Below are positions 28,181 to 36,044 of a stretch of DNA of 64,000 bases, piece after piece. Made by a program: the position numbers and the translations under genes. Origin of the DNA: Pseudomonas furukawaii (GTDB lineage Bacteria; Pseudomonadota; Gammaproteobacteria; Pseudomonadales; Pseudomonadaceae); NCBI RefSeq assembly GCF_002355475.1, contig NZ_AP014862.1, forward strand, positions 3,162,001 through 3,226,000. The letters run 5' to 3'. The notes beneath the pieces are model-generated. The model was not told where the DNA came from and did not search any database. It saw nothing but the letters and a program-made list of their open reading frames with translations. The first letter of the stretch is position 1; each line of letters starts with the position of its first letter.

Positions 28181-28251
28181 GGGCGCCCCAAGGGCGGTGG
28201 AATACCAGGTGAGCGAGGATGCCCCGACCATCCCGGGTCACGCCTCCCGGC

Positions 28252-28279
28252 TTGAGTGACTACCCATATCGGGTAATAT
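28252..28279 (+). promoter_or_regulatory. mqsRA promoter with operator dyad
   Basis: A -35 box TTGAGT (28252-28257) and a -10 box TAATAT (28274-28279) are separated by 16 bp. Between them lies the dyad TACCC-ATATC-GGGTA (28261-28275), which a bound MqsA antitoxin dimer could cover to repress the operon. Confidence 0.6.
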
Positions 28280-28305
28280 TTTGCCAATGGATCATGAGGT
28301 GCTTC

Positions 28306-28614
28306 ATGGAGAAACACGTGCCTCACTACGATCTCGCGACCATCAAGGCGGATGTCGCGAGATTGGGGGCTGCGGCCTTTACCCGTTCCGCCCTGGACGG
28401 CGGCAGGAAGCTGGGCCTTTCGACCAGGGCAATGATTCGGGTGATCCTGTCGATGGAGCGGGCCCAGTTCTACAAATCGATGACCACCCACGGCGACCAC
28501 AGGGTCTGGCAGGACGTCTATCACCCGGCTGCACCCGACGGCACCGCGCTGTATGTGAAGGTGACCTACCGCGGGCCAGAACGTCCGCCCGTCATCTCCT
28601 TCAAGGAGAAATGA
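28306..28614 (+). CDS. mqsR: MqsR-type mRNA interferase toxin
   Basis: A 102-residue type II toxin. The block AQFYKSMTTHGDHRVWQDVYH and the C-terminal VISFKEK match the E. coli MqsR sequence I remember almost residue for residue, and the N-terminal MEKHVPHYDL also fits. MqsR is a ribosome-independent, GC(U/A)-cutting endoribonuclease neutralised by MqsA. The ATG at 28306 gives the usual length. Toxin comes first, as in E. coli, and the next gene starts three bases after the stop. Confidence 0.93.
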   Translation: MEKHVPHYDLATIKADVARLGAAAFTRSALDGGRKLGLSTRAMIRVILSMERAQFYKSMTTHGDHRVWQDVYHPAAPDGTALYVKVTYRGPERPPVISFKEK

Positions 28615-28617
28615 GTG

Positions 28618-29082
28618 ATGAAACATCAGGACTGTGTAAGTTGCGGCGCAGCCAATGGCATGACGCGCTTCGAGGACCGATCGTTCGAAGTCGAGTACAG
28701 AAACCTCAGGCGAAGCGTCCAGGGCCTGTCGGGCTGGGAGTGCCGGGCCTGCGGCGAGACCGAGTTCGACCCCGATAGCGCCCTGCGCTATGGCGCAGCC
28801 GGAGACCAGTTGATCGAAACCGCGAGACGTACCATCGCCCAGGAAATGAAGCGCATCCGCCGCAAGTTGAGCCTGACCCAGAAAACCGCCGTTCAGATGC
28901 TCTCGGGCGGAGGACACAATGCCTTTTCCCGCTACGAACGCGGGGAGGTGGAGCCCCCCCGATCACTGGTCGTACTCATGGCCTTGCTGGACCGCCACCC
29001 CCAGTTGATGGAAGAGATCGTGGCCATCAACCAGGACGTCCGCCTGGATCCTCAGATCGCCGCGCAAGAGCCCGGTCACTGA
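28618..29082 (+). CDS. mqsA: MqsA-type antitoxin
   Basis: A 154-residue antitoxin-repressor. The N-terminal zinc-binding part shows CVSCG (about residues 6-10) and CRACGE (about 43-48). The C-terminal XRE-type helix-turn-helix (LSLTQKTAVQMLSGGGHNAFSRYERGEVEPPRSL) binds DNA. The N-terminal domain should bind and block MqsR, and the C-terminal domain should repress the operon at the dyad at 28261. The ATG at 28618 is preferred over the adjacent GTG because AAGGAG lies at 28602. Confidence 0.93.
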   Translation: MKHQDCVSCGAANGMTRFEDRSFEVEYRNLRRSVQGLSGWECRACGETEFDPDSALRYGAAGDQLIETARRTIAQEMKRIRRKLSLTQKTAVQMLSGGGHNAFSRYERGEVEPPRSLVVLMALLDRHPQLMEEIVAINQDVRLDPQIAAQEPGH

Positions 29083-29119: not shown

Positions 29120-30343
29120 TCAGCTCCCGTCCAAGCCCTGGTGCGCGCGCTCCTTCAACAACGCGCGGATCACCGCTTCCTGCTCCGCGTAATCGCCCTC
29201 GCCCACGTGCAGGTGGCGGACCTGGCCACGGGCATCGATGAAGTAGTGCGCCGGCCAGTAGCGATTGGAGAAGGCGTTCCAGATCCGGTACTGGTTGTCG
29301 ATGGCCACCGGGTGGTGAACATCAAGCCGCCGCATTGCCGCCTGCACGTTCTCCAGGATTCGCTCATAGGGGTATTCCGGGGTATGCACGCCGATCACCA
29401 CCAGGCCCTGGTCGCGATACTTCCGCGCCCATTGGTTCACATGGGGCAGGCTGTTCCGGCAGTTGATGCAGTCATAGGTCCAGAAATCCACCAGCACCAC
29501 CTTGCCCCTCAGCCCTTCCACGTCCAGGGACGGACCATTGAGCCACTGGGTGGCGCCGTCCAGGCTCGGCATGGCCCCCAGCTCCGGCAAGCGTCCCGAC
29601 GTTTCAGCCTGGGCGCTGGCCACCAGCGGCTCCAAGAGCCGTGGGACGCCCTCCAGCACGGCACGCTCCAGCGCCGAGGCCAGACGCGACGAACCGAGGC
29701 TGGCGAGCTGGGCGCCATTCCCCGTGGCGATGACCACCACCGCCAGCAGGGCCAGGGCGCCGGCGCCACGGCGCAGCCATGCCAGGGCCGGCAGCGACGG
29801 ACGCAGGCGCCGGACCAGCCCACGGCCGAGGAAGATCACCGCCCCCAGCGCCACGGCATTGCCCAGGCCGAACGCCAGGAGCGACAGGCTGGTGGAGGCG
29901 CTCGGCCCCTCCAGCATCGCACCGGACAGGATCAGGCCCAGGATCGGCCCCGCGCAGGGCGCCCAGAGCAGCCCGGCGGCGCAGCCCAGCAGCCAGGCCG
30001 AGAGCGCCGGAGGCAGCCCGCCCGCACGCGCCTGCAGCCGCTCGCCGAGCCAGAGCCAGGGGCGCGAGAGCCAGGTGCCGATACGCGACGACAGCAGCGC
30101 CAGGGATGACAGCGTCAGCAGCACCAGGGCCAGGTAGCGCCCCGCCTGGCTGGCCCCCTCCACCCAGGCGCTGGACAGGGTGGCCAGGCTCGCCAGCACG
30201 GCGAATCCGCTGGCCAGTCCCGCCAGGGTCAGCGCCGGCGCCCAGGCCGGACCGCCGGCGCGGGACAGCAGCAGGGGGAGTACGGGAAGAATGCAGGGAC
30301 TCAGCAGGGTCAGGACCCCGCCAAGGAAGGCGATGAGCAGCAT
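29120..30343 (-). CDS. DsbD/DipZ-like thiol-redox membrane protein with a TlpA-type thioredoxin domain
   Basis: A 407-residue protein. The first ~230 residues are a CcdA/DsbD-type six-helix domain with the paired cysteines in LLSPCILPVLPLLLS (near residue 17) and LLWAPCAGPILGLIL. The rest is a periplasmic thioredoxin-like domain with the CxxC in TYDCINCRNSLPH and the cis-Pro region WPAHYFID. It should carry reducing equivalents from the cytoplasm to periplasmic thiols. The ATG at 30343 follows GAGAGGTG. It is divergent from the two-component genes and faces the same GGATAC repeat region, so it probably belongs to the HvfA system. Keeping precursor or copper-ligand cysteines reduced would be a sensible role, but this is inference. 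Confidence 0.88.
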   Translation of the reverse strand: MLLIAFLGGVLTLLSPCILPVLPLLLSRAGGPAWAPALTLAGLASGFAVLASLATLSSAWVEGASQAGRYLALVLLTLSSLALLSSRIGTWLSRPWLWLGERLQARAGGLPPALSAWLLGCAAGLLWAPCAGPILGLILSGAMLEGPSASTSLSLLAFGLGNAVALGAVIFLGRGLVRRLRPSLPALAWLRRGAGALALLAVVVIATGNGAQLASLGSSRLASALERAVLEGVPRLLEPLVASAQAETSGRLPELGAMPSLDGATQWLNGPSLDVEGLRGKVVLVDFWTYDCINCRNSLPHVNQWARKYRDQGLVVIGVHTPEYPYERILENVQAAMRRLDVHHPVAIDNQYRIWNAFSNRYWPAHYFIDARGQVRHLHVGEGDYAEQEAVIRALLKERAHQGLDGS

Positions 30344-30423
30344 GGGGCACCTCTCGGGGATCGGTGGTTGTCGCGGCAGCCGTCGGGGCGTCCGCCTGGT
30401 GCCCATTGCAGCCTCGGGAGGTA

Positions 30424-30553
30424 TCCCCCCTGTGTCCCGCCCTGGCCCGGCCTGGGGTCGCCGGTATCCAGACCGGTCCCGGATACAGAGGGATACGTTC
30501 GCGACTGTCGTGCAATCCCAGGTATCCGCACGCCCCCGGATACACTGGAATAC
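30424..30553. promoter_or_regulatory. GGATAC direct-repeat operator region
   Basis: The divergent intergenic region holds three pairs of a GGATAC-like element. GGATAC occurs at 30481-30486 and 30491-30496 (10-bp period). GGATAC at 30538-30543 and GAATAC ending at 30553 also have a 10-bp period. On the minus strand, GGACAC...GGATAC lies around 30424-30440 (11-bp period). Direct repeats one helical turn apart are typical binding sites of OmpR-type response regulators, and such a gene follows at 30623. Confidence 0.65.
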
Positions 30554-30622
30554 AAAGGGCGGCAGGCAAGGTCGCTGGCCGCCGATACACTGCGTTCGCG
30601 ACGAACCCAACGAGGCCCCTCC

Positions 30623-31363
30623 ATGGACCATGTCGATCACATCCTGATCGTCGACGACGACCGGGAAATCCGCGAACTGGTTGGCAACTACCTGAAGAAG
30701 AACGGCCTGCGCGTGAGCCTCGCGGCCGATGGCCGGCAGATGCGCAGCTTCCTCGCCGCCAATGCGGTGGACCTGATCGTGCTCGACATCATGATGCCCG
30801 GCGACGATGGCCTGCGCCTGTGCCGCGAGCTGCGGGTGGGCAAGCACAAGGCGACCCCGGTGCTGATGCTCACCGCCCGTAACGACGAGACCGACCGCAT
30901 CGTCGGCCTGGAAATGGGCGCCGACGACTACCTCACCAAACCCTTCTCCGCCCGCGAGCTGCTGGCCCGCATCAACGCCGTACTGCGCCGCACCCGCATG
31001 CTGCCGCCGAACCTGCAGATCAGCGAGAGCAGCCGCCTGATCGGCTTCGGCCAGTGGCGCCTCGACACCACCACCCGGCACCTGCTGGACGCCCAGGGCA
31101 CGCTGGTGGCCCTCAGCGGTGCCGAATACCGCTTGCTGCGGGTCTTCCTCGACCATCCGCAACGGGTACTCAGCCGCGACCAGTTGCTCAACCTCACCCA
31201 GGGCCGCGAGGCGGACCTGTTCGACCGCTCCATCGACCTGCTGGTAAGCCGCCTGCGCCAACGCCTGGCGGACGACGCACGCGAACCCGCCTACATCAAG
31301 ACGGTACGCAACGAGGGCTACGTGTTCTCGCTGCCCGTCGAACTGATCGAGCCGAACGACTGA
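30623..31363 (+). CDS. OmpR-family response regulator
   Basis: A 246-residue two-component response regulator. The receiver domain shows IVDDD (acidic pocket), the phospho-acceptor Asp in LIVLDIMMPGDDG and the conserved Lys in LTKPF. The C-terminal winged helix reads LSGAEYRLLRVFLDHPQRVLSRDQLL and SRLRQRLADD...IKTVRNEGYVF. The ATG at 30623 begins MDHVDHILIVDDD. It overlaps the sensor kinase start (TGATG at 31361). The GGATAC direct repeats upstream of this gene, of hvfX and of hvfA suggest it controls all three units and itself. Confidence 0.93.
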   Translation: MDHVDHILIVDDDREIRELVGNYLKKNGLRVSLAADGRQMRSFLAANAVDLIVLDIMMPGDDGLRLCRELRVGKHKATPVLMLTARNDETDRIVGLEMGADDYLTKPFSARELLARINAVLRRTRMLPPNLQISESSRLIGFGQWRLDTTTRHLLDAQGTLVALSGAEYRLLRVFLDHPQRVLSRDQLLNLTQGREADLFDRSIDLLVSRLRQRLADDAREPAYIKTVRNEGYVFSLPVELIEPND

Positions 31364-32670
31364 TGGGCCGCCTGCCCTGGCCCCGGACCCTGGCGGCCCG
31401 CCTGGCCCTGATCTTCCTCGCCGGGCTCCTGCTGGCCTACGGGCTGTCCTTCTCCTCGCAGTTCTACGAGCGCTACCAGACCTCCCGCGACATGATGCTG
31501 GGCAGCCTGGAAATGGACGTGCACACCACCGTCGCACTGCTGGACCACCTGCCCGCCGAGGAGCGGGCAAGCTGGCTGCCCCGGCTGGAGCGACGCAACT
31601 ACCGCTTCCGCCTGGACCGGGGCCTTCCCGGCGAACCCATGGACCTCGACCAGGCCCCCGTCGCCGCCGCCGCCATCCAGCGCGCCATCGGCGAACACTA
31701 CGACCTGCGCTTCGAGAACATCCCCGGCGACCTGCCACGCTTCCAGGCGCACCTGACCCTGAAGGACGGCAGCCCCCTCACCCTGGACGTCACCCCGCGC
31801 CCCATTCCCCTGGCCCACTGGCTGCCGCTGGTGCTGCTGGTGCAGCTGGCGCTGCTGCTGGTCTGCACCGGGCTGGCGGTGCGCATGGCCATTCGCCCCC
31901 TGACCCGCCTGGCCGGGAGCCTGGACAACCTGGACCCCGACGCCCCCAGGCCGCCCCTGGACGAGAACGGCCCCCGTGAAGTGGCCCACGCCGCCCGGGC
32001 GGTCAACGCCCTGCAGGCGCGCATCGGTGCCTACCTCAAGGAGCGCATGCAGCTGCTGGCGGCCATTTCCCACGACCTGCAGACCCCCATCACCCGCATG
32101 AAGCTGCGGGTGGAACAGATGGACGACTCGCCGGAGCGCGAGCGGCTCTGGAGCGACCTGGAGGAAATGCAGCACCTGGTGCGGGAAGGCGTGGCCTACG
32201 CCCGCAGCCTTGACGGCGCCAGCGAAGCGCCCCGGCGCATCGACCTGGACGCTTTCCTCGACAGCCTGGTCTGCGACTACCAGGACAGCGGCCAGCGGGT
32301 GACTCTCACCGGCAGCAGCGGCCTGCAGCTGGAAACCCGCCCCCATGCGCTACGTCGGGTGCTCGGCAACCTCATCGACAACGCCCTGAAGTTCGGCGGC
32401 AGCGCCAGGGTGGAGCTGCAGGCCGACGAGCACGGCATGGTCCGGGTGCAGGTGCTGGATGAAGGGCCGGGCATTCCCGAAGCGGAACTGGAAAATGTCT
32501 TCAAGCCCTTCTACCGGGTGGAAAGCTCACGCAACCGCAGCACCGGCGGGACCGGCCTGGGCCTGGCCATCGCCCTCCAACTGAGCCAGGCCCTGGGGGC
32601 CCGCCTCTCCCTTCGCAACCGCGACGGCGGCGGCCTCTGCGCCCGGCTGGAGTTCGGCGCTTCCGCCTGA
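31363..32670 (+). CDS. sensor histidine kinase
   Basis: A 435-residue membrane kinase paired with the preceding regulator. It has two transmembrane segments (about residues 12-30 and 150-172) flanking a ~120-residue periplasmic sensor region (with LEMDVHTTVALLDHLPAEERASW), a HAMP domain, and the phospho-acceptor block AAISHDLQTPITRMKLRVEQM. The ATPase part has N box NLIDNALKFGG, G1 DEGPGIP and G2 GGTGLGLAI. The periplasmic region has no obvious Cys/His metal cluster, but context suggests it senses copper or envelope redox stress. Confidence 0.92.
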   Translation: MGRLPWPRTLAARLALIFLAGLLLAYGLSFSSQFYERYQTSRDMMLGSLEMDVHTTVALLDHLPAEERASWLPRLERRNYRFRLDRGLPGEPMDLDQAPVAAAAIQRAIGEHYDLRFENIPGDLPRFQAHLTLKDGSPLTLDVTPRPIPLAHWLPLVLLVQLALLLVCTGLAVRMAIRPLTRLAGSLDNLDPDAPRPPLDENGPREVAHAARAVNALQARIGAYLKERMQLLAAISHDLQTPITRMKLRVEQMDDSPERERLWSDLEEMQHLVREGVAYARSLDGASEAPRRIDLDAFLDSLVCDYQDSGQRVTLTGSSGLQLETRPHALRRVLGNLIDNALKFGGSARVELQADEHGMVRVQVLDEGPGIPEAELENVFKPFYRVESSRNRSTGGTGLGLAIALQLSQALGARLSLRNRDGGGLCARLEFGASA

Positions 32671-32680
32671 GGCCGGCGTC

Positions 32681-32697
32681 ACGTACAGAGGGATACA
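32681..32697. promoter_or_regulatory. GGATAC-type direct repeat before hvfX
   Basis: CGTACAGAGGGATACA holds a degenerate first element (CGTACA) and a perfect second one (GGATACA) with 10-bp spacing. It is nearly identical to the 30480 site. It lies directly behind the sensor kinase stop and before the hvfX unit. Confidence 0.5.
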
Positions 32698-32802
32698 GGA
32701 CTCCAGCGTGCAGGACACATGCGGGACACGCCCCCTTGCCAGCATGGCACCGGGAGCAGCGCCAGTATCCCGCCGAGCGCGCCCCGCCCAAAGGAGTCCA
32801 CG

Positions 32803-32868
32803 ATGCCCCGTTCCAGCCCCCCCGACAGCCTGTTCAGCCTCCTCCCCCTCCTGGTAATCGCCCGCTGA
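32803..32868 (+). CDS. possible 21-residue peptide before hvfX
   Basis: A short frame encodes [21 protein letters not shown]. It is preceded by a perfect AAGGAG site with 7-bp spacing (32791), the best ribosome binding site in the neighbourhood, and ends 13 bp before hvfX. It could be a small membrane peptide or a translational leader coupling to hvfX. Real expression is unproven. Confidence 0.4.
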
Positions 32869-32881
32869 TCCCGAGGTCCCC

Positions 32882-33376
32882 ATGACACGCCTTGCGCCAA
32901 TCCGTAACGCCTTTGTCCGCATCGACCGCCTGGGCGCCTGGAGCGCCGACCTGCCGCTGCGCCTGTTCCTCGCCTGGGAGTTCTTCGAGTCCGGGCTGGA
33001 AAAATGGAACGGCGAGAACTGGTTCGCCCAGATCCAGCCCGCCTTTCCCTTCCCCTTCGACCTGATGCCCGCCGGGCTCAACTGGCAGCTCTCCATGTGG
33101 GTGGAGCTGATCGCCCCCCTGCTCCTGCTGCTGGGCCTGGGAACCCGCCTCGCCGCCCTGGCGCTGGCGGTGCTCACCGTCGTGGCCATCGCCGCCGTGC
33201 ACTGGCCGGCCCACTGGTCGAGCCTCGCCGAACTGGCCCTCGGCTACTCCATCAGCGACAAGGGCTTCGGCAACTACAAGCTGCCCCTGATCTACCTGGT
33301 CGCCCTCCTGCCCCTGATGCTCAAGGGCGCGGGCCGCCTGAGCCTCGACGCCCTGCTTCGCTCCCGGCCGCTGTAG
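32882..33376 (+). CDS. hvfX: DoxX-family protein, HvfX-like RiPP maturation protein
   Basis: A 164-residue membrane protein with four hydrophobic segments and the DoxX pattern ([25 protein letters not shown] near residue 25, [22 protein letters not shown] near 80). DoxX proteins accompany HvfA/HvfB/HvfC sets, where they are annotated as HvfX maturation proteins. Here it lies on the opposite strand, convergent with hvfCBA and behind the two-component genes, rather than inside the hvfABC operon. The ATG at 32882 follows CCCGAGGTCCCC. Confidence 0.82.
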
Positions 33377-33582
33377 GAGCCGGCTTGCCGGCGAAGATTC
33401 GCGAGCAAGCTCGCTCCTACAGCGGGGACGGTCTCGTAGGAGCCGGCTTGCCGGCGAATGGCGCGGGCGGTTCGCGAGCAAGCTCGCTCCTACAGGATCG
33501 CCGCCGTAGGAGCCGGCTCGCCGGCGAATGGCGCGGGCGGTTCGCGAGCAAGCTCGCTCCTACAGCGATCGCCGCTGTAGGG
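33374..33582. repeat. REP cluster between convergent hvfX and hvfC
   Basis: Three consecutive pairs of GTAGGAGCCGGCTTGCCGGCGAA and TTCGCGAGCAAGCTCGCTCCTAC facing each other; the second and third are nearly identical, including the GGCGCGGGCGG linker. A regular BIME-like array at a convergent gene end. Confidence 0.9.
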
Positions 33583-33595
33583 GCCGTCCGCTCCA

Positions 33596-33632
33596 ACAAA
33601 AAGCCCGCGCAATCCGTCGATTGCGCGGGCTT
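33596..33632 (-). terminator. Rho-independent terminator of the hvfABC operon
   Basis: A 14-bp perfect stem, AAGCCCGCGCAATC / GATTGCGCGGGCTT, with a 4-base loop. Read on the minus strand it is followed by a T-run (CTTTTTG). It lies 19 bp past the hvfC stop. Confidence 0.88.
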
Positions 33633-33650
33633 CGTCCATCCGGCAGCCGG

Positions 33651-34394
33651 TCACCCGGACCGGGTGCCCAGCACCACCCCCTGCTCCCGCAGGCTTTCCA
33701 GCAGCGCCAGGCCCTGGGGCATGAGCACCTCCCGTTCCACCCCGACGGCATCCGCCAACTCCCCGATGTGCTCGCGGCCACTGCGGCGGCTGTCCTGTAG
33801 CGACACCAGCAGGGCATGGGCCAGGGGCGCCAGGCGGGAGAAATGCACCTTGAGGTCGGTCCCGCGCCGGGCCAGCAACAGTGTCGGCTCGTTTGGCGCC
33901 CGCTCCGGCAGGTGGCCGGGACCCAGGTCGCAGACCGGCCAGGCATAGGCAAGCGGCCAGGCCAGCCGCGACAGCAGCGGAACCCCATCCAGCAGGTCGC
34001 CCCGGGGATCGTGGGCGCACTCCGTCGCGTCGCTCAGCAGCAACTCGCTCTCCACCCATTCATAGTGGGCCAGCTCCGCCAGCCAGGCGGGCAGCGCGGC
34101 ATCCTCCAGGTCCCCCAGCCAGGCGACGAACTCCCCGGCCAACTGGGTGAACAGCGGCGTGCGGCACCGGTACTCGCCATAGAAACGGCTCACCAGGTCC
34201 TGCCAGGTCCCCTCTCCCAGGCTGGCATGGATGACCGGAAAGCCCCCCGCCAGCAAGGACGTCAGATTGCCCAGGAACAGTTGCCGATACACCGCCAGGC
34301 GCCGTGCCTCCAGGCCCGGGGGCGGACCGTGGCGGGCCGGGTCCCGTACGTGGTGGGCCATGGCCAGCAATTGCGCGTTCAGGGTCTCAGCCAT
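33651..34394 (-). CDS. hvfC: HvfC/BufC-like peptide modification partner (DUF2063)
   Basis: A 247-residue protein with the DUF2063 N-terminal domain ([48 protein letters not shown], about residues 28-76) and a C-terminal winged-helix-like part ending [23 protein letters not shown]. In related clusters this protein binds the precursor peptide and the MNIO enzyme as a modification chaperone. The ATG at 34394 overlaps the hvfB stop by eight bases (ATGGCTGA), so the two are translationally coupled. Confidence 0.88.
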
Positions 34395-35217
34395 GACGCA
34401 CCTCCTGCTGCCGGCTGCGGATCTGCCCGACTTCGGCCAGCAGTTCCCCCAGCGGCGGAAAGTTGAAATCCCGCTCCAGCAGCGTCGGCACCGGGCCGAA
34501 GCGTCCGTAGGCACGCGTCAACAAGGCCCAGACGTCATCCTTCACCCGGGTGCCGTGGGTATCGATCTTCAGGTCCGGCGCTTCATCGTAATGCCCCGCC
34601 ACGTGCAGGCAGACCACCCGCTCCGCCGGTACCGCGTCCAGCCAGGCGACCGCGTCGTAGCCGTGGTTGATGGCGTTGACGAAGAGATTGTTCAGGTCCA
34701 GCAACAGGTCGCAGTCGGCCTCCTCCAGCACCGCCCGGAGAAAGTCGATCTCCGCCAGGGCCTGGTAGGGCGCCGCATAGTAGGAAACGTTCTCCACCGC
34801 GATGCGCCGCTCCAGCACGTCCTGGGCCTGACGAATGCGCCTGGCCACATGGCGTACCGCCTCTTCGGTGAAGGGCAAGGGCAGCAGGTCGTACAGCTGG
34901 CCCTCGTCGGAGCAGTAGCTCAGGTGCTCGCTGTAGAGGCGAACCCGGTGCTGCTCGAGGAAGCGGCGGGTACCGTGCAGCAGGCCCAGGTCCAGCGGCG
35001 CCGGACCGCCCAGGGACAGCGACAGGCCATGGCAGCTCAGCGGGATGCGCTCGGCGAGCTGCGCCAGCGCCTCGCCCTGGGCGCCGCCGACGCCAATCCA
35101 GTTGTCTGGGGCGCATTCGAGAAAGTCCAGGGAGCCGGCGTCCATCGCCAGCAGTTCGGGCAACAGGGCGCGGCGGAGGCCGAGGCCGGCGCCGGACAGG
35201 GGAGATACAGGTGTCAT
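34387..35217 (-). CDS. hvfB: HvfB-type MNIO (DUF692) RiPP maturase
   Basis: A 276-residue multinuclear non-haem iron oxygenase. The TIM-barrel metal-ligand blocks are visible: [71 protein letters not shown] and LLERDFNFP. Relatives oxidise cysteines in EGKCG motifs of HvfA peptides to copper-binding oxazolone/thioamide groups. The start at 35217 is the only one before this conserved sequence. It lies downstream of the precursor hvfA, separated by a stable hairpin, and overlaps hvfC. Confidence 0.92.
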
Positions 35218-35238
35218 TGGGGCCTCTCCGGACGGCAG

Positions 35239-35272
35239 CCAGCCCTCCAGGCACCTGGGCCGGGAGGGCTGG
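35239..35272 (-). other. intercistronic hairpin between hvfA and hvfB
   Basis: A perfect 10-bp stem (CCAGCCCTCC / GGAGGGCTGG) with a 14-base loop lies just behind the hvfA stop. There is no T-tract. It may stabilise the hvfA end of the transcript or partly terminate, giving more precursor than enzyme. Confidence 0.5.
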
Positions 35273-35286
35273 CAAAGGGGTTGGGA

Positions 35287-35754
35287 TCAGTCCTTGGCCT
35301 GGCTCATGTTGGTGAAGAGCTCGGTGGGAACCTTCTTGCCGTTGGAGAGGTACTGGTTGCTGCGGAACTTGTAGACCTCCGCTTCGGAGAGGTAGCCGTC
35401 CTGGTTGCTGTCCATCGCCCTGAACTCGCTGGTGCCATCGGGGGCCACGGCCAGCAGCTCCTTCAGGGAAACGCGAGCGTCGTCGTCGGTATCCGTGCGG
35501 GCGAAGGAGGCATCACCGCATTTGCCTTCGCCACACTTGCCTTCGGTCTGGGTGGCCTTGGCCTCGCTGGCGCCGCATTTGCCCTCGCCGCATTTCCCTT
35601 CGCCGCACTTGCCTTCCCCGGCCTTGTCGGCCGCCGCCAGCAGGTAGCCCTGGGGCAGCGCCTCGACGGCGAAGGCGGACGACGCGAGGTTCATGCCGCC
35701 GGCCAGGGCGACGGCGAGCAGGCCAATACGGGTGGTGTTCTGGATACGGGTCAT
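35287..35754 (-). CDS. hvfA: HvfA-type copper-binding RiPP precursor fused to an EF-hand pair
   Basis: A 155-residue secreted precursor. A signal peptide (residues 1-29, ending SSAFA) precedes a Cys-rich segment with five EGKCG motifs at residues 47-51, 52-56, 57-61, 71-75 and 76-80, the known substrate motif of HvfB-like MNIO enzymes. The C-terminal half has two EF-hand loops, D88-x-D90-x-D92 ending at E99 and D115-x-N117-x-D119 ending at E126. There are five cysteines, all within the EGKCG motifs. The ATG follows GGAGAAGC. It should be modified, exported and bind copper, possibly with calcium binding by the tail. First gene of hvfABC; GGATAC repeats lie upstream. Confidence 0.88.
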   Translation of the reverse strand: MTRIQNTTRIGLLAVALAGGMNLASSAFAVEALPQGYLLAAADKAGEGKCGEGKCGEGKCGASEAKATQTEGKCGEGKCGDASFARTDTDDDARVSLKELLAVAPDGTSEFRAMDSNQDGYLSEAEVYKFRSNQYLSNGKKVPTELFTNMSQAKD

Positions 35755-35869
35755 GGTGCTTCTCCGGATAAGGGCGCGGCATTGCCGCAGGGGCTGCCAG
35801 GGGTGGCGTTATCCGGTGTCGAGGCCCCTTGCGAGCCTCGATCGGACAGCGACATTTCGCCTCAGCCCT

Positions 35870-35945
35870 GTATCCCCCACGTATCCGAATCGGACGCCTT
35901 TGTAGTCGAGGTGTCGTCCAGGCCTCGCCGGATACACGGGGATAC
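35870..35945. promoter_or_regulatory. GGATAC direct-repeat operators before hvfA
   Basis: Two pairs occur. On the minus strand, GGATAC at 35886-35881 and 35875-35870 has an 11-bp period. On the plus strand, GGATAC at 35930-35935 and 35940-35945 has a 10-bp period. These are the most perfect copies in the window and match the sites before the response regulator gene and hvfX. No gene but hvfA can easily be served by them. Confidence 0.7.
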
Positions 35946-36044
35946 AGGGTCTCGCGGATCAGGCTGCTCCCGGGAACAGGACGAACCCGATCGCCATCTC
36001 CGCGCGCCCCCGTCGACGCCGCCCAGTGGCGGTCCTACCCCGCC

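Follow-up and report, generated by a model that had tools for sequence, protein, structure and literature searches.

The locus considered here raises the question of why a two-component system and a thiol-redox gene should lie beside a cluster for a copper-binding peptide. It is found in a 64,000-nucleotide stretch of the Pseudomonas furukawaii genome (assembly GCF_002355475.1, contig NZ_AP014862.1; G000:C1:3162001-3226000; genome 6.24 Mb), called the window below. There, hvfA, hvfB and hvfC, which would make a ribosomally synthesised and post-translationally modified peptide (RiPP), occur together with hvfX, a response regulator, a sensor kinase and a CcdA-TlpA fusion (the redoxin). A preliminary description of the DNA had read these genes, with five EGKCG motifs in hvfA and a set of repetitive extragenic palindromic (REP) repeats, as a copper-RiPP system. 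Open reading frames (ORFs) and profile matches confirm this inventory, and the copper-RiPP type is supported. The same description called the split arrangement, with a convergent hvfX, and the linked sensor system unusual, perhaps marking a distinct subclass. This view is not supported, since the EGKCG/EF-hand chimaera is already in print (PMC12452194) and the sensor system very probably belongs to the BfmRS type, for which control of efhP-PA4106-PA4105 has been demonstrated (PMC4148453, PMC8025907). Our answer is that the locus is probably the P. resinovorans-group form of the P. aeruginosa locus bfmRS - pa4103/4104 - efhP-PA4106-PA4105, working by the mechanism set out in the last section. 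What appears to be new is that two fields are joined, that the redoxin is conserved and that evidence for the operator exists both in cis and in trans.

Sensor pair and EF-hand precursor

The reference for the sensor pair is locus L081 of the P. aeruginosa-like genome G130, to which the window regulator is 89% and the kinase 68% identical. L081 encodes an EF-hand HvfA with four EGKCG motifs, HvfB, HvfC, HvfX, a membrane protein, a kinase, a regulator and a dehydrogenase-like protein, in a run that starts beyond an HD-GYP-like gene (by eye). In P. aeruginosa, PA4107 has a calcium motif, PA4106 and PA4105 are DUF692 and DUF2063 proteins, PA4101-4102 are bfmRS and PA4100 is a dehydrogenase (PMC4148453, PMC4053335); PA4103 has a ferric-reductase-like domain (PMC4148453), and EfhP carries four EGKCG repeats (PMC11559002). 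The content of L081 matches this published PA4100-PA4107 region and, therefore, the window pair is with high probability BfmRS-like. The top three BfmR peaks in chromatin immunoprecipitation sequencing (ChIP-seq) were at the efhP-PA4106-PA4105, pa4103-4104 and bfmRS promoters, and the gene most activated by BfmR was efhP (PMC8025907).

The window resembles the P. aeruginosa locus in its regulator and kinase and in the convergent EF-hand/EGKCG gene that DUF692 and DUF2063 genes accompany, and GATACA-type sequences, predicted to be BfmR boxes, occur at the corresponding promoters. It differs in two respects: L081 has a dehydrogenase where the window has the divergent CcdA-TlpA gene, and the PA4103-type membrane protein between kinase and hvfX is missing. 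Among the 103 sequences searched, relatives of the L081 membrane gene were found in 36 and the dehydrogenase in one, L081 itself; the window has neither. The best NCBIfam matches are OmpR for the regulator and EnvZ for the kinase, each below its cut-off. A DsbRS-type copper sensor was considered and set aside, since both the gene order and the box agree with BfmRS.

HvfA of the window is an EF-hand variant of its family. Its translation has five EGKCG motifs (residues 47-61 and 71-80) and a putative signal peptide, judged by eye. It matches the KCGExKCG domain NF050137 at 42 bits (cut-off 19.5), while assignment as an HvfA equivalog was rejected (NF050188, 30.3 bits vs a cut-off of 95). The two canonical EF-hand loops first described are reduced to one: loop 2 (115-126, DSNQDGYLSEAE) is canonical, whereas loop 1 (88-99, DTDDDARVSLKE) has Ala in place of Gly at position 6. 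Four EF-hand Pfam models match, every one below its cut-off; the relatives L081 and L137 pass some EF-hand cut-offs. An AlphaFold2 model has an EF-hand pair at 81-137, with a predicted local distance difference test (pLDDT) score of about 71-85 by blocks, and the first helix of this pair begins directly after the last EGKCG. The EGKCG region is modelled as unstructured (pLDDT below 50 over 17-78; mean pLDDT 58). Most of the 50 Foldseek matches listed for the model are EF-hand proteins, all with E above 0.05, which makes the match qualitative. In aligned relatives, the last EGKCGEG(K/Q)CG pair is retained even after the loss of other repeats.

The precursor gene is adjoined by those for an HvfB-type MNIO and an HvfC partner, which pass NF003818 and NF050145, respectively. 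The His/Asp/Glu set of HvfB is conserved across 69 HvfB sequences, and HvfC had no PDB match in a single-sequence search.

The family described in PMC12452194 has the same short EGKCG domain, two C-terminal EF hands and MNIO, DUF2063 and DoxX genes, and EfhP is named there. Its main text, however, never mentions BfmR, two-component systems, thioredoxin or DsbD; regulator, operator and redoxin are what the window adds. Relatives of HvfB and HvfC install 5-thiooxazoles on EGKCG cysteines, and the resulting peptides bind Cu (PMC13097082). The oxazolin (HvfABC) and fontiphorin "captophorins" share the EGKCG repeats, the HvfB-type MNIO and HvfC/PME1, whereas EF hands and BfmRS are not described in the sections consulted (PMC13097082, PMC13419390). 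EfhP is known as a calcium protein (PMC9132961, PMC4053335, PMC11559002). Among the papers that the literature searches listed, few of them subscription titles, none joins BfmR with MNIO, bufferin, oxazolin or DUF692, and none brings it together with redoxin terms.

The literature on BfmRS/EfhP (biofilm, calcium, cystic-fibrosis adaptation) and that on MNIO thiooxazole copper RiPPs seem never to have been joined. If they are, both a chemistry and a metal can be assigned to the strongest BfmR target, a role open to testing to the EfhP cysteines within EGKCG, and a conserved thiol reductase can be named as partner of EGKCG RiPPs. Two proposals appear to be new: that the main output of BfmRS is a probable thiooxazole copper RiPP, and that the redoxin, as CcdA-TlpA or as TlpA alone, would belong to the BfmR regulon.

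Candidate operator sites in cis and in trans

The motif was first seen as repeated GGATAC and GATACA words in the intergenic regions of the window, before comparison with the published BfmR motif. The latter, from ChIP-seq, is TACAA-N3-GATACA (PMC8025907), and was used as a box with up to 2 mismatches and a gap of 3 or 4 (gap 4 was added in this analysis). Controls were single-base shuffles and 240 windows cut from the outer parts of these loci, and the promoter groups were restricted to loci carrying two or more EGKC motifs. At this threshold the window has 11 sites, five of them in the three intergenic regions at 30344-30622, 32671-32881 and 35755-36044 and six elsewhere. Those in the locus are predicted BfmR boxes at the bfmR, hvfX-side and efhP-type promoters.

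The box was present in all 36 hvfA promoters with BfmRS on the same contig (shuffled 20/360), including three loci (L087, L090 and L092) where BfmRS is 17-56 kb away. It was also present in 8/8 hvfABC loci with BfmRS elsewhere (shuffled 6/80), of which L083, L084 and L086 have precursors without EF loops, and before 19 of the 20 EF-hand hvfA genes located away from hvfBC (shuffled 19/200), a set that includes second copies (e.g., in G006, G190, G254 and G269). On the redoxin side, it occurs in 53 of 54 redoxin/regulator intergenic regions, which are longer (shuffled 53/540), and in all four unlinked redoxin promoters, with one mismatch each (shuffled 7/40). The control windows had it in 6/240 cases (shuffled 146/2400), and the distant-type hvfA copies in BfmRS genomes in none of three (shuffled 5/30). 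From the 37 genomes with only a distant HvfB, G164 and G198 were left out of the promoter set and G178 was counted among these three.

The strict form TACANNNNGATACA has two matches in the whole genome, at window positions 32684 and 35933, upstream of hvfX and hvfA. BfmRS is present in 13 genus genomes, 11 of which have one or more strict matches at the locus, and further strict matches lie elsewhere. Exact GATACN{5,6}GATAC has eight matches in the P. furukawaii genome, three of them at the locus, against one for the control. GGATAC half sites 10 or 11 bp apart recur in redoxin/regulator regions and hvfA promoters, both in cis and in trans; in the hvfA groups they were counted in 33/36, 8/8, 11/20, 1/34 and 0/3, the 34 being promoters in genomes without a close BfmS. 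A 14-bp spacing of half sites occurs in 9 of these 34, and the hvfX side alone has a weak half-site signal.

The operator interpretation has its limits. In its favour, the box precedes only 2 of the 34 hvfA genes in genomes without a close BfmS (shuffled 22/340), but these control genes are another, non-EF lineage and, hence, ancestry confounds the comparison. L115 is among them because the 52%-identity kinase of its genome, G020, was excluded from the kinase set. The reversed control of the strict box also has two matches in the P. furukawaii genome; with the box and its control equally frequent, the count of the strict form is at chance level and its placement alone is informative. Two of the 13 BfmRS genus genomes, G006 and G009, have no strict match at the locus. 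GATACN{5,6}GATAC occurs in all 18 genus genomes, 4-9 times in those with BfmRS (n=13) and 2-5 times in those without (n=5), so its count separates the groups poorly. In six BfmRS-linked loci of Stenotrophomonas, Lysobacter and Steroidobacter the box is absent before hvfA (3-5 mismatches), although the tested stretch may not be the promoter, because in 5/6 hvfX directly precedes hvfA in the same orientation.

Two further strict boxes were noted. One, L314 1501-1514 (G009:C1:3027200), is upstream of a secreted-cupin-like frame (by eye), a possible regulon member; the other, L325 1501-1514 (G002:C1:3118339), is about 4.5 kb past the redoxin gene, beside an AraC-type-like frame (by eye).

The redoxin and its linkage to the hvf genes

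In a PDB sequence search, the thioredoxin domain of the redoxin matches DipZ (2hyx, 5cyy) and its membrane half matches CcdA (2n4x, 5vkv); its match to Pfam DsbD_2 is below the cut-off. The protein is similar to DipZ in having a TlpA-like domain with a CxxC motif (CINC) and a CcdA-like membrane half. It differs in that it stops, at 407 amino acids, after the TlpA domain, where DipZ presumably has a further C-terminal domain. Cys21, 134, 296 and 299 (numbering window:29120-30355) are present in 59/59 full-length forms, window included; two of the cysteines are in the CcdA half and the CINC is in the TlpA half. Family frames of ~600 amino acids (47-53% identity), presumed to be full-length DipZ, were excluded from the redoxin sets, as were one 356-amino-acid frame and a second G016 match.

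Co-occurrence was counted in 298 Pseudomonadaceae genomes, evenly drawn from a larger group, with cut-offs of at least 60% identity for the kinase and at least 65% for close HvfB, and with no HvfB defined as no match at E<=1e-70. In these counts, which like their Fisher p-values ignore shared ancestry, the kinase occurs in 61/61 close-HvfB genomes vs 17/237 others (1/37 with distant HvfB only and 16/200 without an HvfB match), and CcdA-TlpA in 51/61 vs 13/237. Ten close-HvfB genomes lack the full fusion; nine of these have a short TlpA-only protein, and the tenth is G130, which holds L081. With G294 and G295 included, eleven genomes have the short form, and it adjoins the regulator in 11/11 mapped loci (L082, L187-L196). 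One or other redoxin form is present in 75 of the 78 kinase genomes; genomes that lack the kinase have neither form at the cut-offs used.

Within the genus, HvfB orthologues (at least 78% identity) and CcdA-TlpA (at least 70%) are found in the same 13 of 18 genomes and are both missing in five. In the 13, the two genes are separated by less than 5.5 kb in 11 cases, by 17 kb in one and by 56 kb in one. The functional link proposed in the preliminary description, between hvfABC and the two-component and DsbD/TlpA-like genes, is thus upheld by conserved order, co-occurrence and shared operator, and the refuting condition named there, homologous loci without any linkage, does not overturn it, although linkage is not universal. 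One of the five other genomes, G010, has hvfB fragments plus an hvfA with the operator.

Decayed hvf copies, counted separately from the promoter groups, were seen in L095 (G010:C1:2872000-2885000) and L096 (G016:C80:128000-141500). In both, hvfB is in fragments, the hvfA frame is open and a GGATAC-type repeat precedes it; the BfmR box is present in L095 and not in L096 (3 mismatches), where truncated redoxin and kinase pieces adjoin the decayed copy.

The complete order, DsbDT(-) RR(+) HK(+) HvfX(+) HvfC(-) HvfB(-) HvfA(-), where DsbDT is the redoxin, RR the regulator and HK the kinase, was found in 30 of 81 mapped sequences, a set that includes controls and loci chosen for split or missing parts. 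One further sequence has the full order minus hvfX only. The convergent hvfX, previously thought unusual, is therefore part of the ordinary layout among these relatives. The contigs of G045, G120, G127 and G169, which have the parts on different contigs, were left out of this hvfB-centred mapping. Another 12/81 have redoxin, regulator, kinase, hvfC and hvfB in the window order with no adjacent EGKCG precursor, and an EF-hand HvfA is located elsewhere in each of these 12 genomes. No other precursor next to hvfB was convincing by eye in these loci, the 11-Cys and 15-Cys frames of L068 being taken for chance. Precursor genes lying apart from hvfBC hint that scattered substrates may share a single regulator and a single maturase locus.

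A profile scan of named genomes with HvfA, in which the best 80 of at least 360 relatives were kept and flanks of up to 10 kb were fetched, extends this picture. Among these best 80, BfmRS-type genes are in the flanks of 15 loci, all with EF hands and HvfB and 13 with a redoxin, and in 0/9 of the HvfB loci without an EF loop; 34 have no HvfB in reach. Stenotrophomonas, Lysobacter and Steroidobacter loci (L255, L256, L258-L260, L276) have BfmRS-like genes and a TlpA protein linked in other gene orders. An Ohr-family peroxiredoxin gene (L259 12118-12534; TIGR03561 above cut-off) lies within a Lysobacter hvf/regulator cluster, and L256 has a similar frame.

Mechanism, alternatives and neighbouring features

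Gene content, conserved linkage, co-occurrence and shared boxes are established directly. BfmR control of the efhP operon, EGKCG thiooxazole chemistry and EfhP as a calcium protein are carried over from the papers on relatives and may apply here. We infer the modification and copper binding of the window HvfA, the service of the redoxin to it, and the signal. In the mechanism that we propose, an envelope signal would lead BfmS to activate BfmR, which would bind GATACA-type boxes before hvfA(efhP)-hvfB-hvfC, hvfX and the divergent redoxin/bfmR pair. HvfB and HvfC would then convert the EGKCG cysteines to 5-thiooxazoles, and HvfA would move to the envelope, where its thiooxazoles would capture Cu(I) and its EF-hand pair calcium; calcium-dependent folding or targeting had been put forward in the preliminary description as a putative contribution of the EF hands. 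CcdA-TlpA would carry cytoplasmic electrons across the membrane and keep thiols reduced, whether in HvfA or in further envelope proteins under copper or oxidant stress.

It is tempting to speculate further, at low probability, that the chief target of BfmRS, studied as a switch for biofilm and virulence, is a copper metallophore coupled to calcium. The HvfA/EfhP thiooxazole pair would be fused onto the first EF-hand helix, calcium would gate copper capture, and the redoxin with the same box would recharge the thiols.

Several observations speak against parts of the proposed mechanism or of the identification behind it. L081 was equated with PAO1 through gene content, partly by eye, rather than by alignment of PAO1 proteins, and its membrane protein has no Pfam match and is weakly MsrQ-like (26.8 bits vs a cut-off of 130). 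The published signal of BfmS is osmotic stress (PMC10924945), and no Cys/His cluster is conserved in the part of the kinase that senses it (one His in 63/74, one Met in 70/74), so that the idea of a metal site in this sensor region was rejected. Iron, not copper, has been proposed for the EfhP cysteines (PMC11559002). L081 has no CcdA-TlpA; the redoxin is therefore not essential to the BfmRS-efhP unit. Of the 16 no-HvfB genomes that keep the kinase, 14 have a redoxin form, indicating that BfmRS-redoxin works apart from hvfABC. Finally, 22 of the 37 EF-hand and HvfB loci among the best 80 relatives have no BfmRS in the fetched flanks; some of these (e.g., L228 and L241) are Pseudomonas with BfmRS elsewhere or past the flank.

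The redoxin and BfmRS might form an independent envelope thiol or osmotic stress module, with hvfABC as only one output and no direct role of the redoxin for HvfA. CcdA-TlpA occurs without a close HvfB in 13 genomes, 12 of which lack any HvfB match at E<=1e-70, and in L099, L104, L105 and L106 the redoxin is apart from the kinase and still has the box. We consider this possible, if doubtful: many relatives have kept the redoxin close to hvfABC, and in Lysobacter L256 and L259 it is inside the hvf/regulator gene run. EfhP/HvfA could also be mainly an envelope sensor of calcium, perhaps of iron, in which the EGKCG part tunes and copper is not the physiological ligand. EfhP has been investigated as a Ca2+-binding sensor with an effect on iron uptake, its four EGKCG repeats have been proposed to sense iron (PMC11559002, PMC4053335), and a connection exists between BfmRS and the control of siderophores (PMC10924945). 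Such a role as the main one seems unlikely to us in the face of the Cu-binding products of HvfB/HvfC relatives (PMC13097082), a window HvfB above the HvfB-family cut-off and the retained last EGKCG pair. It is very improbable that the genes are linked through accidental inheritance within a single lineage. While synteny within the genus is inherited and the co-occurrence counts take no account of phylogeny, the set stays together in Lysobacter, Stenotrophomonas and Steroidobacter despite an order different from that in Pseudomonas, HvfB and redoxin are present or missing jointly in the 18 genus genomes, and unlinked copies mostly keep the operator.

Table 1. Features of the locus and their positions in the window.
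Feature	Position	Strand	Basis
CcdA-TlpA fusion, DipZ-like, predicted trans-membrane thiol reductase	29120..30343	-	PDB sequence matches
BfmR-box-like site, 2 mismatches, redoxin/regulator intergenic	30484..30497	+	GATACN5GATAC at 30482-30496
Second BfmR-box-like site, 2 mismatches, redoxin/regulator intergenic	30541..30554	+	
Response regulator, BfmR type, OmpR family	30623..31363	+	PF00072 and PF00486; identity to L081 regulator
Sensor kinase, BfmS type	31360..32670	+	HisKA and HATPase; position and order as in L081
BfmR-box-like site, 1 mismatch, upstream of hvfX	32684..32697	+	
hvfX, DoxX-family membrane protein	32882..33376	+	PF07681 above cut-off; NF050144 146.9 vs 80
REP/REPIN-like repeats between convergent hvfX and hvfC	33370..33586	.	
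Perfect 14-bp inverted repeat, 4-nt loop, between hvfX and hvfC	33601..33632	.	
hvfC, DUF2063 partner protein	33651..34397	-	PF09836 above cut-off; NF050145 251.2 vs 142
hvfB, MNIO (DUF692) maturase	34387..35217	-	PF05114 336.9 bits; NF003818 413.5 vs cut-off 360
hvfA, efhP-type precursor	35287..35754	-	ORF, 155 aa; NF050137 above cut-off
Second, opposite BfmR-box-like site, gap 4, 2 mismatches, upstream of hvfA	35869..35883	-	
BfmR-box-like site, 1 mismatch, upstream of hvfA	35933..35946	+	

The perfect inverted repeat between the convergent genes is perhaps a two-way terminator. An MqsR/MqsA-type toxin-antitoxin pair (window 28219-29082, + strand; Pfam above cut-off) abuts the 3' end of the redoxin gene. 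The same genome has two more MNIO loci, L001 and L002, ~166 and ~83 kb off. L001 has a BufA2-type precursor (NF050166 above cut-off) beside a frame with a multicopper-oxidase-like start (PF07732 above cut-off), and in L002 a DoxX-like frame and a Cys-containing frame precede the MNIO, as judged by eye.

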